Notes under the pieces: generated by a model | What the model saw: only the letters and a program-made list of their open reading frames with translations | The model's database searches: none | Told to the model about the DNA's origin: nothing | Position numbers and translations under genes: made by a program | In this document: in pieces, positions 2,381-46,318 of the stretch | Position numbering within the stretch: the stretch's first letter is position 1 | Layout: each line of letters starts with the position of its first letter | Assembly: GCF_903642285.1 (NCBI RefSeq) | Contig: NZ_CAHJWJ010000014.1 | Location: forward strand, 1-64,000 | Length of the DNA: 64,000 nucleotides | Source of the DNA: Sphingomonas bacterium | GTDB taxonomy: Bacteria; Pseudomonadota; Alphaproteobacteria; Sphingomonadales; Sphingomonadaceae | Reading direction: 5' to 3'

Positions 2381-3591
2381 CCCGATTGCGTCCGCGGCAC
2401 CGTGGGCTTCGGCTGGACCTGCGCCGGGGTACTCCGCACCGCCGCGACGGCGCCGCCCATGGCGATCAAATCCTCGTTCGCGGGCACGCGGTCGCCAAAG
2501 ACCGCTGTCGCGTGACTGAGAGCAAGTCCCTTGTGGAAGGTGCCGTCAATCGCCGCATCCATGCGGTCGGCTACGCTTAGAAAAATGCCGCGAACCCGCT
2601 GTCGGTAGTCGGGCGTCCAATCCTTACAAAGCAGCTTGTCGGTGTCGCCGGGAAATGCCGGGTTGCCGACTGGCTGCTCCACCTGCCGGGCGATCGCGCG
2701 CGCCGTCCTCACCAGCGCGATATCGAGCCGGGTCGGATCAAGATCCTTCATCGTCTCCATCGCGCTCACGACAAGCGCCATGATGCAGATCGACGACAGC
2801 CCTCCGTCGAAACGTGCGTCGCGCATGCCCTTGAAGCAGCGCGACAACTCCCGAACGATCGACCCGTGCAATTTCACGGCGTTCTCGAACCAGCCCTCAA
2901 GCTTGCGCGGGTCGGACTCGATCCAGCCGTCGTCCCGATGCGCGAGCATGATCTCCGCTTCGGCCAGGGTGCGATAGATGCGCTCGTCGAGATCGACGGA
3001 GTCACGCATTTGAAGCGATTTGGTGAGACTGTCCGCCGCCGTGAACTCTACGAGCTGCTCAAACGCACTGTCCTTGATGGCGTATAGGGGCAAGTCGATG
3101 TGGAGCCGCTCGCTGATCTCCACGCGGACGCACGACCCCTTACGCACGGGGTTCAAGGTCCAGCCCTCGCGCCGGCACAAGGGCGCCAGCGCCTTCTCCA
3201 CCAGCTTGAAATAGGCCGCCGACGCGATCGTGGGGCGAACGCGGTTTCCGACTAGCACGAAGGACTGGGGGAGAAACACGCCATCGTCCTGGTCGATCTG
3301 CTGCCCCGGTGGGTTCTGGCAGTCATTCACTGTGTGGTAGGCGAAGCTACCCTGGATGCGGAACTTCGGCCGAGGCACCTGCGGGTCGAATGTCGTCGCG
3401 GCGAGTTCCCTGCCTAGCAGCTCCTCACGCAGAAGGTACTGGTTCCAGTTCCGAAAGGCGCCCCGAAGGGTGTCCCGGATCATCTCGCGCGCCGTAGCCA
3501 GCTCCCGCCGATCGAGCGTCTCGACCGCAATCTCGTCGAGATAGCCTTGGCCGACAGCCATCAACTTGTGCAGATTCAGCTTCGTTGCCAT
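2377..3591 (-). CDS. cdnA: CD-NTase (DncV-like cyclic nucleotide synthase)
   Basis: A 404-residue nucleotidyltransferase of the CD-NTase superfamily that makes a cyclic oligonucleotide signal on phage infection. The active site is visible: QGSFAYHT (Gly81-Ser82), IDQDDG with metal-binding Asp100 and Asp102, and the third acidic strand HIDLPLYA with Asp166. These blocks resemble Vibrio DncV, so a clade A-like enzyme is likely, though product nucleotides cannot be read from sequence. The chain ends in Ser-Gly; a small C-terminal residue is what Cap2 conjugates. I set the start at 3591, not the upstream frame extension, because a strong AGGTGGGG ribosome site sits just before it. First gene of the CBASS operon, transcribed away from the dac-like gene. 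Confidence 0.9.
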   Translation of the reverse strand: MATKLNLHKLMAVGQGYLDEIAVETLDRRELATAREMIRDTLRGAFRNWNQYLLREELLGRELAATTFDPQVPRPKFRIQGSFAYHTVNDCQNPPGQQIDQDDGVFLPQSFVLVGNRVRPTIASAAYFKLVEKALAPLCRREGWTLNPVRKGSCVRVEISERLHIDLPLYAIKDSAFEQLVEFTAADSLTKSLQMRDSVDLDERIYRTLAEAEIMLAHRDDGWIESDPRKLEGWFENAVKLHGSIVRELSRCFKGMRDARFDGGLSSICIMALVVSAMETMKDLDPTRLDIALVRTARAIARQVEQPVGNPAFPGDTDKLLCKDWTPDYRQRVRGIFLSVADRMDAAIDGTFHKGLALSHATAVFGDRVPANEDLIAMGGAVAAVRSTPAQVQPKPTVPRTQSG

Positions 3592-15658: not shown

Positions 15659-15676
15659 CCCTTTCCCTCTTTCATC

Positions 15677-15755
15677 GTCACCCCGGCCTCGAGCCGGGGT
15701 CCCGCTTCTTCGGCCCGCTGCGAATAGCGGGACCCCGGGTCAAGCCCGGGGTGAC
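15677..15755. repeat. Dispersed palindromic repeat, family A, copy 1
   Basis: Inverted repeat bounded by GTCACCCCGG and CCGGGGTGAC with inner arms around GGGTCCCGC and GCGGGACCC. It sits between serC and serA. Related copies occur at 33321, 36840 and 46136. It may fold as a transcript hairpin and reduce readthrough. Confidence 0.85.
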
Positions 15756-15779
15756 GGCTAGACTCTAGGATGAACCAAA

Positions 15780-30723: not shown

Positions 30724-30835
30724 TCCCCACCCCGGCGAAGGCCGGGGCCCAGTTGGGAAAAGCTTGGCATATCGACGGTCGACCGTCGTCACGCCGTTCA
30801 TTGCAACTGGGCCCCGGCCTTCGCCGGGGAGGGTA
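30724..30835. repeat. Dispersed inverted repeat, family B, copy 1
   Basis: Long inverted repeat: CCCCGGCGAAGGCCGGGGCC on the left pairs with GGCCCCGGCCTTCGCCGGGG on the right, with CAGTTG/CAACTG next inward and a GACGGTCGACCGTC palindrome at the centre. It lies between ligD and the ATP-grasp gene. Confidence 0.85.
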
Positions 30836-30856: not shown

Positions 30857-33325
30857 CTACAAATCCGGCAATACCTGATCTGCCACGCCCCAGTCCGCCA
30901 GCGCCCGCCCGTTCGCCCGCTCCACCAGCGCCGCGCCGTCGCGCACGTTCCATTTCGCCGCGGTGTCGATATCGCGCAGTTCGGTCCACGACACCGGCAC
31001 CGCGACCGGCGCGCCGGCCCGCGCGCGCGCCGAATAGGGCATGATCGCGGTCGCACCGCGCTGGTTGCGCAGCCAATCGATGAAGATCCGGCCTTTGCGC
31101 TTCGCCTTCGTCATCACCGCGACATAGCGTTCGGGCTCCGCGCCGGCCAAAGCGCGCGCGAACCGGTCGGCGAAGTCCTTGACCGCAGGCCATTCCGCTT
31201 GCGGCGTCAGCGGCACGACGACATGAACGCCCTTGCCGCCCGACAGCAGCGGGAAGCTGACCAGGCCCAGTTCGGCCAGCTGTTCCTTCAGATGCTCCGC
31301 GGCCTTCTTGGTGTCGCCGAAGTCCAGCCCTTCGTCGGGGTCGAGATCGAACACCATCCGGTCGGGCTGCTCCAGCGCGGCGTTGGTCGATCCCCAGCCG
31401 TGGAATTCGATCGTTCCCATCTGGACGCACGCGACCAGCCCGTCGGCATCGTCGACCCACAGATAATCCTCGGTCGATCCGTCCTTCTCGCGGATCGGCA
31501 CCTGATGGACCGCGCCGCCGAAGCTGCCGGCATCGTGCTTCTGGAAGAAGCACGCCTTGGCGCGACCCTGCGGGCAGCGGACGAGGCTGACCGGTCGCGC
31601 GCCGGCCCAGGGAAGCATGATGGGCGCCAACGATGCGTAATAGTCGGCCAGTTCGCCCTTCGTCACGTCGCTGTCGGGAAAGATCATGCGGTCGCGGCTC
31701 GAGACCTTGACGGTGACGGTGGACGGTTCGGGCAGCGCGGCCGGCGTCTCGGCAACCACGTCGTCCGCCGCCTTGTCCTCGCGCAGGCCGAGGAAGCTCG
31801 AATGGCGCAGCACGCCGTCTGGCGTCGTTTCGGCGAACGCGATCTCGGCGACCATTTCGGGGCGCACCCAGTGTGCGTGGCGGACGGCCGCCCGGGGCGC
31901 GTCGACGGTCGGCGTCTTGCGTTCCAGCCTGGCCATTCGCGCGGACAGATCGTCCATCGTCGCCTGATCGAACCCGGTGCCGACCTTGCCGGCATATTTC
32001 CAGCCGTCGCCTTCGCGCACCCCCAGCAGCAGCGACTTGAACCCGCGGGTCTTGTCCGACGGCAGCCACCCGACGATCACGAACTCCTGACGAAGCGTGC
32101 ATTTGGTCTTGAGCCACGCCTTCGTCCGGCCCGCGCGGTAGGGCGCGTCCGCCAGCTTGGAGACGACACCCTCCAGCCCCTCGCGACACATCGCCTCGAA
32201 CAATTTCTCGCCCGACCCGATGACGTGTTCGGCATATTTCAGGCGGTCGTGATCAGCGGGCAGGATCGCCGCGAGCCGATCCTTGCGCGTGACGTTAGGC
32301 AGGCCGGTCAAGTCCTCGCCATCCAGCGACAACAGGTCGAACGCGAAGCACGTCATGTCGCCGGCGCTGGATATCGCGTCCTTCAGCGTGGAGAAATCGG
32401 GCTTGCCGTCCTTGAACGCGACGATCTCGCCGTCGATCAGTGCGGACCGGACGGGCAGGGCTGCTGCTGCTTCGGCGATTGCCGCGAACTTGTCGGTCCA
32501 GTCGAGGCCGGAACGCGTGAAGACCTTCGCCTTGCCGTTCGCGACCGCGATGCGCGTGCGGTAGCCGTCATATTTCACCTCGTGCAGCCATGCGCTTCCG
32601 GTCGGGACGGTGTCGACCAGGGTGCAGAGCTGGGGTTCCCTGAAAGCGGAGGCATCCGACCCTGTTCTCCCGCGAACGCGGGAGCCCAGGGCCGCGGGCG
32701 GTGCGCTTGGAACCCTGGGCCCCCGCTTTCGCGGGGGAACAGCAGGCTTCCCCTCCTCGATCTCCATCATCGTCCGCCCGGTCGAGACGCTCGTCAGCCT
32801 CTCGTCGACCAGCACGTCGGTGCCACCCGCCGCGGCATCCTCGACCTTCCGCAGCAACCAGTTCTCGCGCTTCTCCTTCGCGCGGGGTTTCAGGCGGATG
32901 AGGATCCACTCGCCCTTCATCCGTTCGCCTTCGAGGACGAAGTGCAGATGGCCCTTGTCGATGTCCTTGGCCGACTTGCCCTTGACGGGCGACCACGTGC
33001 CGCGATCCCACAGCATGACGGTGCCGCCGCCATATTCGCCCTTGGGGATCGTCCCCTCGAACGTGGCGTAGGACAGGGGATGATCCTCGGTCCGGACCGC
33101 GAGCCGTTTTTCGTTCGGGTCGATGCTCGGCCCGCGCGTCACCGCCCAGCTTTTCAGGACGCCATCGACTTCGAGCCGGAAATCCCAGTGCAGCCGGGTG
33201 GCATCGTGCTTCTGCACCATGAAGCTGTTGCCATGACCGGGTGCGAGCGTACCGGCGGGTTCGGCGGTTTTCGCGAAGTCGCGCTTGGCGTTGTAGAGCG
33301 CGAGGGGGTCGATTTGCGTCGTCAT
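30857..33325 (-). CDS. ligD: ATP-dependent DNA ligase D (PE-ligase-polymerase)
   Basis: An 822-residue non-homologous end-joining enzyme. Phosphoesterase domain about 1-190 (KHDATRLHWDFRLEVDG), ligase domain about 230-530 with the nucleotidyl-lysine motif EVKYDGYR, and polymerase domain about 545-822 (MVFDLDPDEG, SGGKGVHV). Residues about 195-222, between the first two domains, are encoded by an 81-base palindromic repeat. The start codon at 33325 lies in the edge of a family A repeat. It lies just downstream of ku. Domain order is the same as in Pseudomonas LigD. Confidence 0.95.
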   Translation of the reverse strand: MTTQIDPLALYNAKRDFAKTAEPAGTLAPGHGNSFMVQKHDATRLHWDFRLEVDGVLKSWAVTRGPSIDPNEKRLAVRTEDHPLSYATFEGTIPKGEYGGGTVMLWDRGTWSPVKGKSAKDIDKGHLHFVLEGERMKGEWILIRLKPRAKEKRENWLLRKVEDAAAGGTDVLVDERLTSVSTGRTMMEIEEGKPAVPPRKRGPRVPSAPPAALGSRVRGRTGSDASAFREPQLCTLVDTVPTGSAWLHEVKYDGYRTRIAVANGKAKVFTRSGLDWTDKFAAIAEAAAALPVRSALIDGEIVAFKDGKPDFSTLKDAISSAGDMTCFAFDLLSLDGEDLTGLPNVTRKDRLAAILPADHDRLKYAEHVIGSGEKLFEAMCREGLEGVVSKLADAPYRAGRTKAWLKTKCTLRQEFVIVGWLPSDKTRGFKSLLLGVREGDGWKYAGKVGTGFDQATMDDLSARMARLERKTPTVDAPRAAVRHAHWVRPEMVAEIAFAETTPDGVLRHSSFLGLREDKAADDVVAETPAALPEPSTVTVKVSSRDRMIFPDSDVTKGELADYYASLAPIMLPWAGARPVSLVRCPQGRAKACFFQKHDAGSFGGAVHQVPIREKDGSTEDYLWVDDADGLVACVQMGTIEFHGWGSTNAALEQPDRMVFDLDPDEGLDFGDTKKAAEHLKEQLAELGLVSFPLLSGGKGVHVVVPLTPQAEWPAVKDFADRFARALAGAEPERYVAVMTKAKRKGRIFIDWLRNQRGATAIMPYSARARAGAPVAVPVSWTELRDIDTAAKWNVRDGAALVERANGRALADWGVADQVLPDL
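32662..32742. repeat. Palindromic repeat inserted in frame inside ligD
   Basis: Inverted repeat with arms CTGTTCTCCCGCGAACGCGG and its near complement ending in GCGGGGGAACAG, plus inner CCCAGGG/CCCTGGG arms. The span is 81 bases, a multiple of three, and it encodes Arg/Pro/Gly-rich residues about 195-222 of LigD. It resembles intergenic family A and B repeats in structure but sits inside a gene. Confidence 0.85.
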
Positions 33326-33402
33326 GCCGGGCTCGTCCCGGCATCCAGGGTTGCGGGCGTCACGCTGCTTGGCTCTGGACCCCGGGACGAGCCCGGGGTG
33401 AC
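33321..33402. repeat. Dispersed palindromic repeat, family A, copy 2
   Basis: Bounded by GTCATGCCGGG and CCGGGGTGAC with CTGGACCCCGGGACGAGCCC on the right arm. It fills nearly all of the ku-ligD gap. The left tip contains, in reverse, the ligD start codon. Confidence 0.85.
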
Positions 33403-33412
33403 CGGTGCGGCC

Positions 33413-34297
33413 TCAGGCACGTTTCTTCGCCGCGGGCTTCTTCGCCGGTGCCTTTGCCGCGGGCTTCTTCGCTGCCGGTGCCGCCTTCGCCGGCGCATCG
33501 TCCTTCGGTGCCGTCCCCATCGACTTCTTCAGCGCCGCCATCAGGTCGACCACGTTCGATCCACTCCGCTTGCCGTCGTCCTTGTCCTCGATGATCTTGC
33601 CGCCGCCCTTCGCCTTGCGCTTGCGCTCGACAAGATCCTTCAGCGCGTCGACATAGCGGTCGTGGAATTCCTGCGGGTGGAACGTGCCGCTGCGCTTGCC
33701 GATCAGCGCTTCGGCCAGTTCGAGCAGTTCGTCCGAGGGCTTGTCGTCGGGAATCTCCCGGAAATAGCCTTGCGCCTTGTGCACTTCGTCGGCGTAGCGC
33801 AGCGTCTCCAGCACCATGCCGCGCCCGCACGGCTTCAGGCTGACGACATATTCGCGGCCGCGCATCGCCAGCTGGCCCAAGCCCACCTTCTTCGTCCGCC
33901 GCAGCGCCTCGCGCAGCACGATGAACGCCTCCTCCGCCAGATCGTCGGCGGGCACCACGAAATAGGGCTTTTCGTAATACAGCACGTCGATCTCGCTCGC
34001 GTCGACGAACTGCGTCAACTCCAGCGTCTTCTTCGATTCCAGCTTCACCGCGTCGATCTCGTCCTGGTCGAGCAGGACATATTCGCCCTTCGAAATCTCG
34101 TAGCCCTTCATGATCTCGCCCACGTCGACCGGGCCGACCCCGGTGACGACTTTCTCGTAATGGATCGGCTGGCCCGACGGTTCGTGGATCTGCTTGAACG
34201 AAATCGCCGCGCCCGATTTGGTGGCGGAATAGATTTCCACCGGGATCGAGACGAGCGCGAGCCTGATCTGTCCCTGCCAATAGGCGCGTGCGGCCAT
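33413..34297 (-). CDS. ku: Ku DNA end-binding protein
   Basis: A 294-residue bacterial Ku. The core (MAARAYWQGQIRLALVSIPV at the start, EIMKGYEISKGEYVLLDQDE in the middle) forms the homodimeric ring that threads on DNA ends and recruits LigD. The C-terminal 40 residues are a Lys/Ala/Pro-rich tail (KKPAAKAPAKKPAAKKRA), common in Ku and thought to help DNA binding. Transcribed toward ligD with a repeat between. Confidence 0.95.
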   Translation of the reverse strand: MAARAYWQGQIRLALVSIPVEIYSATKSGAAISFKQIHEPSGQPIHYEKVVTGVGPVDVGEIMKGYEISKGEYVLLDQDEIDAVKLESKKTLELTQFVDASEIDVLYYEKPYFVVPADDLAEEAFIVLREALRRTKKVGLGQLAMRGREYVVSLKPCGRGMVLETLRYADEVHKAQGYFREIPDDKPSDELLELAEALIGKRSGTFHPQEFHDRYVDALKDLVERKRKAKGGGKIIEDKDDGKRSGSNVVDLMAALKKSMGTAPKDDAPAKAAPAAKKPAAKAPAKKPAAKKRA

Positions 34298-34351: not shown

Positions 34352-34496
34352 CCAATCCTCCCCGGGACGAGGAGGGGGACCGTCGGGCGAAGCCCGATGG
34401 TGGAGGGGGTGGGCCGCAAGTGGTTCGCTCGCGGCCTGCCCCCTCCACCATTTGCTTTCTGCAAATGGTCCCCCTCCCCGTACCGGGGAGGATTGG
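34352..34496. repeat. Dispersed palindromic repeat, family C, copy 2
   Basis: Long inverted repeat with outer arms CCAATCCTCCCC and GGGGAGGATTGG and inner arms GAGGGGGACC/GGTCCCCCTC. It fills the gap between ku and pdxH. Its right arm contains the GGGGAGG that serves as the ribosome site of pdxH. Confidence 0.85.
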
Positions 34497-46091: not shown

Positions 46092-46135
46092 AAGCGCACA
46101 TAATCATTTCGTTTTCGGACGCCCCGTCGATCAAC

Positions 46136-46217
46136 GTCATCCCGGGCTTGTCCCGGGATCCGGAGCCAAGCAGCGACACGCCCGTAACCCTGGATCCCGG
46201 GACAAGCCCGGGATGAC
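46136..46217. repeat. Dispersed palindromic repeat, family A, copy 4
   Basis: GTCATCCCGGGCTTGTCCCG on the left and the exact complement ending in GCCCGGGATGAC on the right, with GGATCC at the inner ends. The most symmetric copy. It lies between the DUF445 gene and mlaE. Confidence 0.9.
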
Positions 46218-46318
46218 GCAAGGGGTACCGACAGCCCTGATCGCCAATCGCGCCAGCGCGCCGTCGCACGCCGCAATCGTCTTGCCGTGCCTGCCGCTTT
46301 CCCGCAAAGGTACGGGCG

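Follow-up and report, generated by a model that had tools for sequence, protein, structure and literature searches.

In a Sphingomonas DNA ligase D (LigD), the linker that joins the phosphoesterase domain to the ligase domain includes 27 codons that are very probably a copy of a dispersed head-to-head REP dimer, which landed in frame in a disordered stretch and is now coding sequence. Going beyond the preliminary description of this DNA, we established that the insertion is one among many at the same site, derived from several repeat families. The sequences show that the repeat is dispersed and in frame, that the same place is filled by other repeats in many relatives, differing even between close species, and that other genes of the same genome (those for ValS, IleS, E2 and SURF1) carry such inserts in frame. 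The window, by which we mean the whole 64,000-nucleotide stretch of DNA analysed, contains the following features:

30857 to 33325, minus strand: ligD, an 822-residue NHEJ DNA ligase D with the domain order phosphoesterase (PE), ligase, polymerase (open reading frame and domain search)
32894 to 33214, minus strand: 3'-phosphoesterase domain, residues 38-144 (PF13298; coordinates derived from residues)
32627 to 32779, minus strand: PE-ligase linker, residues 183-233, 51 residues (bounds set by alignment)
32102 to 32599, minus strand: ATP-dependent ligase domain, residues 243-408 (PF01068; coordinates derived from residues)
30917 to 31663, minus strand: primase-polymerase domain, residues 555-803 (PF21686; coordinates derived from residues)
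32662 to 32742, minus strand: in-frame head-to-head REP dimer, 81 nt (local repeat scan, genome copies, models)
32713 to 32742, minus strand: first REP unit on the coding strand, with tag GTTC, stem CCCCCGC, loop GAAA and tail CCCAGGG (parts named from sequence)
32662 to 32691, minus strand: second REP unit, inverted (repeat scan, copy alignment)
34352 to 34496, no strand assigned: type A palindrome upstream of ku, two 69-nt arms, 80% complementary (window repeat scan, family models)

The ligD open reading frame (ORF) is intact and has all three domains expected of a LigD, namely PE, ligase and polymerase; its 822 residues score 612.8 bits against TIGR02776, for a cut-off of 373.2. From its sequence, we take the gene at 33413-34297 on the minus strand to be ku. 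Two further palindromes border ligD: in the space separating it from ku, another inverted pair of REP-like character (33321-33402), whose GTCAT end contains the ligD start codon as mechanically listed (33323-33325, minus strand), and a pair with 30-nt arms, 97% complementary, immediately downstream of the gene (30726-30833). A structure model of LigD, itself modest (mean pLDDT 69, built from 32 sequences), has its confidence minimum at residues 201-220, with mean pLDDT of 29 for residues 201-210 and 28 for residues 211-220; residues 197-224 lie below 50 and contain neither helix nor strand. The 50 of 598 Foldseek matches listed for this model are LigD polymerase and ligase domains, Prim-PolC, NHEJ polymerases, and other DNA ligases and their complexes, and they added nothing on the linker.

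The preliminary description had placed an 81-base inverted repeat, divisible by three and free of stops, between the PE and ligase domains, and our analysis bears this out. The arms, 30 nt each, lie at 32662-32691 and 32713-32742 and form a pair of inverted hairpin units; they are 90% complementary, with a short spacer of 21 nt between them. Searching the whole window with one arm at up to three mismatches returned just these two places, and 0 in 100 shuffles. The repeat falls between the end of the PE domain at residue 144 and the beginning of the ligase domain at residue 243. It spans 27 stop-free codons, though it starts inside a codon: its first base is the second of codon 195 and its last is the first of codon 222, the residues numbered 195-222 being AVPPRKRGPRVPSAPPAALGSRVRGRTG. 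A repeat scan of the whole window with an exact seed of 9 left this palindrome off its list, probably because the longest exact run common to both arms is 8 nt, and a finer local scan detected it. Rfam gave five matches, four to the repeat and one to the type A palindrome, each of them to a microRNA family and below its gathering score; we took them as what any long hairpin would match and rejected a structured RNA.

The palindrome might be a coincidence of an Arg/Pro/Gly-rich linker encoded by G+C-rich DNA, an explanation to which we give almost no credit. It draws on the fact that repeat-free linkers are also basic, and on a synonymous-codon test in which the window's own linker, taken alone, reached a moderate z of just -2.3 (3 of 200 as low); the case for this palindrome is one of sequence homology. 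Against coincidence, the 81-nt stretch has 63 matches at E <= 10 in its own 3.05-Mb genome, both strands counted, corresponding to 15 other near-full places and many halves. The view that a repeat became a protein segment gains support from these copies, although they are similar rather than identical to the ligD repeat, the identical copies that had been anticipated giving way to a best identity of 85% over near-full length. We aligned and folded 16 near-full places (the ligD one included) and two halves. They share a common unit, with variants, of tag GTTC, stem CCCCCGC, loop GAAA and tail CCCA, arranged in head-to-head pairs that fold as one long hairpin. Outside its own genome, the repeat is matched in 105 of the 150 other congeneric genomes (106 of 151 with its own), at up to 89% identity; within-genome counts are lower bounds, five candidates having been scored per genome. 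Eight genomes (G018, G024, G058, G061, G071, G092, G093 and G127) each gave 161-200 first-look candidates for the window's repeat, and their own LigD linkers hold type A in six cases and another repeat in two.

Several REP families seem to be present in the window's genome. Repeats of type A are found in 135 of the 151 genomes of the genus, that one included, and CGTC-tagged palindrome pairs lie in the window at 15676-15756 and 46135-46218, the latter with 27-nt arms that are 100% complementary.

LigD was detected in 146 of the 151 genomes, its own included, and we collected one locus from each of 139 (L027-L165), leaving out seven with partial or distant matches. In 133 of these loci a single ORF runs through the linker. 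The others comprise L164 and L165, which run to the contig end, L160, L161 and L163, broken in the linker, and L162, broken past it; these breaks may be real frameshifts or hairpin assembly errors, which are indistinguishable from sequence. None of the 29 nearest LigD has the window's linker residues, in repeat or in ordinary codons; at the same place they carry other repeats or a Lys/Ala/Pro linker. In many species the linker is about 32-47 residues long and rich in Lys, Ala and Pro. It is longer in other species, with phrases such as SSPARGGGPAKLVEGAGRK...PPSTTAKGRGGPPPRAGE, ILPGTGRGTA...RSPSPSRGG, SPRRRPGPP...GPGLRRGD and ALPSRLREGSGEG...PPASGRG. The DNA of 15 relatives' linkers, when inspected, contained other palindromes, and CGTC-like tags are found in the linkers of L050, L101 and L122. 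Two records named Arthrobacter sp. TPD3018 and Microvirga sp. SRT01 (L201 and L223) are probably misnamed, because their LigD, at 75% and 77%, are about as close as those of Sphingomonas.

We built profile models from own-genome copies alone, using 15 copies of family B, to which the ligD repeat belongs, without the ligD copy, and 15 of the longer type A palindrome without three in-gene copies; an intergenic position is established for part of them. Searched against the 133 LigD ORFs, the models matched 46 linkers (33 by A, 13 by B, none by both). The linkers amount to 21,471 of the 331,329 nt searched, and the sole matches elsewhere were two, both at the upstream end (nt 25-78) of a single ORF, L041. 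Family B matched the linkers of twelve other congeners, L063 most strongly. Among the matches listed, L063 (the ligD of G022) aligns with the window stretch over 1-91 of 96 at 79%, and it lies far from the window gene on the LigD tree; shared origin, transfer or repeated insertion are each possible.

Sequence sharing with DNA outside ligD was assayed by blastn against 836,575 nt of non-LigD DNA, in which some loci overlap and some were chosen for holding A or B repeats. At least three loci were matched by 59 of the 133 linkers versus 0 of 532 control segments from the same ORFs, and at least one locus by 67 linkers versus 13 controls. On a stricter set of 608,332 nt, from which the A/B-chosen loci and the window were removed, the corresponding figures were 54 of 133 linkers versus 0 of 532 controls, and 63 linkers versus 8 controls. 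This difference argues further against coincidence, and together with the dispersed copies it led us to reject a chance palindrome arising from codon composition. Of the 133 linkers, 17 had a 120-nt window whose hairpin energy undercut every one of 9,324 non-linker windows, and 27 fell below the 0.1 percentile of the non-linker values.

The 133 linkers were assigned to five states (none 72, A 33, B 13, C 3, other 12), which include at least three distinct repeat families, and mapped on a FastTree of LigD made with the linker columns removed. The five states need at least 37 changes, a figure in which gains and losses are not separated; for repeat versus none at least 22 are needed, 17 of which are forced by well supported branches. 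A clade of six near species (L106, L112, L113, L121, L158 and L159) bears four state labels. The sister clade of the window gene (14 rows) has 11 A, 2 other and 1 weak B, and none of the 133 rows is an empty-site relative close to the window gene. The total of 61 repeat linkers is a low count, because the state none includes L073, L089, L098 and L099, which are repeat-like by eye. Of 68 top-ranking LigD matches from other genera of the family, three have a repeat linker: L303 and L318, detected with model A, and L310, detected by blastn. L310 shares its genus with L318. Repeats peculiar to other genera may be missed, since Sphingomonas supplied the models and most of the DNA.

The own-genome copies of type A are open in 65 of 90 frames and those of family B in 72 of 90, so survival in frame would not be rare; the open fractions for shuffles of the same composition are 0.445 and 0.563, respectively. 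As to which frame is used, motifs identified it for 23 of the 25 linkers of states B and other: the basic PRKRGP-type frame in 20, PAKAG in 2 and PREGGD in 1. L074 and L133 matched no frame motif. Type A linkers are distributed as 19, 9 and 1 over the three frames, the third being acidic, with 4 unread. The motifs also struck eight linkers of state none, all dropped, four of them repeat-free by eye (L047, L107, L110 and L115) and the four repeat-like ones named above. This bias of repeat linkers towards basic frames is suggestive in strength, because the rows are not independent: the counts include kin, 11 of the 33 type A rows lying in one clade. A comparison of the charge of the used frame, which was higher in 47 cases and lower in 12 with 2 ties, is biased by flanking codons and shared descent and gives weak support for frame selection.

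Such a bias is what one would expect if the linker were selected for its inserts, with palindromes being recruited as pre-formed linkers, basic, disordered and DNA-binding, to the benefit of LigD and beyond mere tolerance. We consider this unlikely. It fits the preservation of net charge (means of +7.8 in core linkers without repeats and +7.4 to +10.0 with repeats), the over-representation of basic frames, and the abundance of repeat linkers in the genus set against their rarity in the 68 LigD of other genera. However, the repeat-free linkers reach much the same charge in 26.6 core residues, compared with 40-53 in those with repeats, and both the differences between close species and the 72 of 133 linkers that are repeat-free suggest tolerance. 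Moreover, sites in ValS and IleS are filled too, where we see no obvious need of a basic stretch. In our preferred reading, the predicted inserted peptide most likely makes little difference to how LigD functions, being nearly neutral.

These other insertions were found among 18 type A loci examined in the same genome, three of which lie in frame inside recognisable enzymes:

L259: type A insert in ValS, in frame
L266: type A insert in IleS, in frame
L255: type A insert in the 2-oxoacid dehydrogenase E2, in frame, between the lipoyl and E3-binding domains

At 25 A or B loci, 40 ORFs of at least 200 residues span copies; in the 20 of these that were scanned with Pfam, family B lies inside a recognised domain in two cases only, the ligD copy and a half-length copy, in frame, in the SURF1 gene. 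For ValS, 26 of 30 loci, drawn from 61 genomes, could be delimited: 11 have an insert at the same site and 15 the short form, in a set that favours filled sites because the query carried the insert. By eye, these inserts come from different repeats. The repeat in the LigD linker of L106 and the ValS insert of L276 (nt 2965-3075) are 81% alike over 107 nt. In one of the 11 filled loci, L288 (valS of G024), the frame breaks inside the repeat insert to leave ORFs of 618 and 445 residues, which is either a hairpin assembly error or a genuine disruption of a presumably essential gene. For IleS, with 19 of 20 loci delimited, only the window's own genome has site 1 filled; at site 2 several congeners have a long form, and other congeners, like 6 of 7 loci of other families, have a short one. 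Recurrently filled sites are present in ValS too and, to judge by eye from the relatives' putative inserts, in IleS.

How the repeats move bears on a further explanation, in which the NHEJ machinery (Ku/LigD) itself spreads them and the LigD linker is struck through where or how they move. CGTC repeats apparently lack a dedicated transposase, according to PMC3733652, and Y1 transposases are rare in the genus, above cut-off in 15 of 151 genomes. Type A repeats are nevertheless present in three of the five genomes in which no LigD was matched (G003, G079 and G113, but not G087 and G122), and inserts also occur in unrelated genes; spread by NHEJ is, to our mind, very improbable, and we rejected a requirement for LigD on the count of LigD-less genomes. 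Mobilisation by a RAYT was rejected likewise, the window's own genome (assembly 99.43% complete, 54 contigs) giving 0 matches to the Y1 transposase (PF01797) and such enzymes being rare in the genus. With type A in so many genomes, including most of those without a LigD match, and Y1 so rare, neither a RAYT nor LigD therefore looks necessary for the presence of the repeats.

The best reading of these data is that palindromes are mobile, insert frequently, and persist in frame where the protein is disordered. Several repeat families would insert into new places, and their G+C-rich palindromes, with few stops, would make stop-free landings common. Landings elsewhere in LigD or out of frame would be purged by purifying selection, whereas the linker would tolerate changes of length and sequence in near-neutral drift. 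Selection may also keep the linker positively charged and so filter the reading frame, a step for which the support is weaker. More tentatively, and with rather less than even confidence, we propose that several palindrome families of Sphingomonas constantly provide raw material for coding sequence. A small number of permissive positions, namely the LigD linker, a single ValS site and one or two IleS sites, would be repeatedly refilled, protein selection would pick the frame, and protein-specific linkers would arise about as fast as species diverge. One enzyme's linker, rebuilt over and over from a variety of repeats, amounts to a natural replicate experiment, in which the freedom of an interdomain linker, selection on reading frame and charge, and the movement of repeats without a known transposase can be measured. 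REP-like inserts in presumably essential genes of Sphingomonas, valS and ileS among them, may also disturb annotation and assembly.

REPINs, which are mobilised by RAYTs, consist of an inverted REP pair with a short spacer and occur in many dispersed copies. The element described here has the same architecture, but its genome is without a Y1 transposase, for which reason we do not class it as a REPIN, and its ligD copy is coding. Rickettsia palindromic elements (RPE) are known from intracellular bacteria. As described in PMC2229807, these are repeats of 105-146 bp fused in frame inside conserved proteins, and a guanylate kinase bearing one is translated and active, with a changed substrate affinity. 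The likeness to the Rickettsia elements drawn in the preliminary description holds as an analogy, by description: here too a stop-free palindrome lies in frame within a conserved protein and encodes a predicted peptide, in 81 nt as against 105-146 bp.

The species E. litoralis and S. alaskensis are sphingomonads. REPs have been reported in tRNA synthetases of both and of X. oryzae, and in a DNA ligase of O. terrae, in the main text of PMC3733652. There, GTAG/CGTC REPs are described as palindromic units of 20-40 bp, often dimers, that lie within genes, frequently those of DNA synthesis and repair, and encode 20 to 30 residues; some CGTC repeats are equated with RPE-4 and RPE-6. Insertion of palindromic repeats inside genes is hence of an already known kind. 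LigD has 0 occurrences in the main text of PMC3733652, its supplementary gene list lying outside our search, and Sphingomonas is unmentioned in the text of the LigD review PMC8656161 that the search covered. A literature search that reached few papers of subscription journals turned up no account of a LigD linker being filled again and again, by several families, within a genus. With the GTAG/CGTC intragenic REPs, the window element shares a palindromic dimer inside a gene and 20 to 30 encoded residues. The CGTC REP has a CGTC tag, an 8-9 bp stem, a 4-5 nt loop and a CCA tail (PMC3733652, main text); the loop GAAA and tail CCCA of the window element fit this pattern, its tag being GTTC instead of CGTC. 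Finally, recB of two Xanthomonas species has a REP inserted at the same site, again according to the main text of PMC3733652, whereas the LigD linker has been refilled by several families across the genus.
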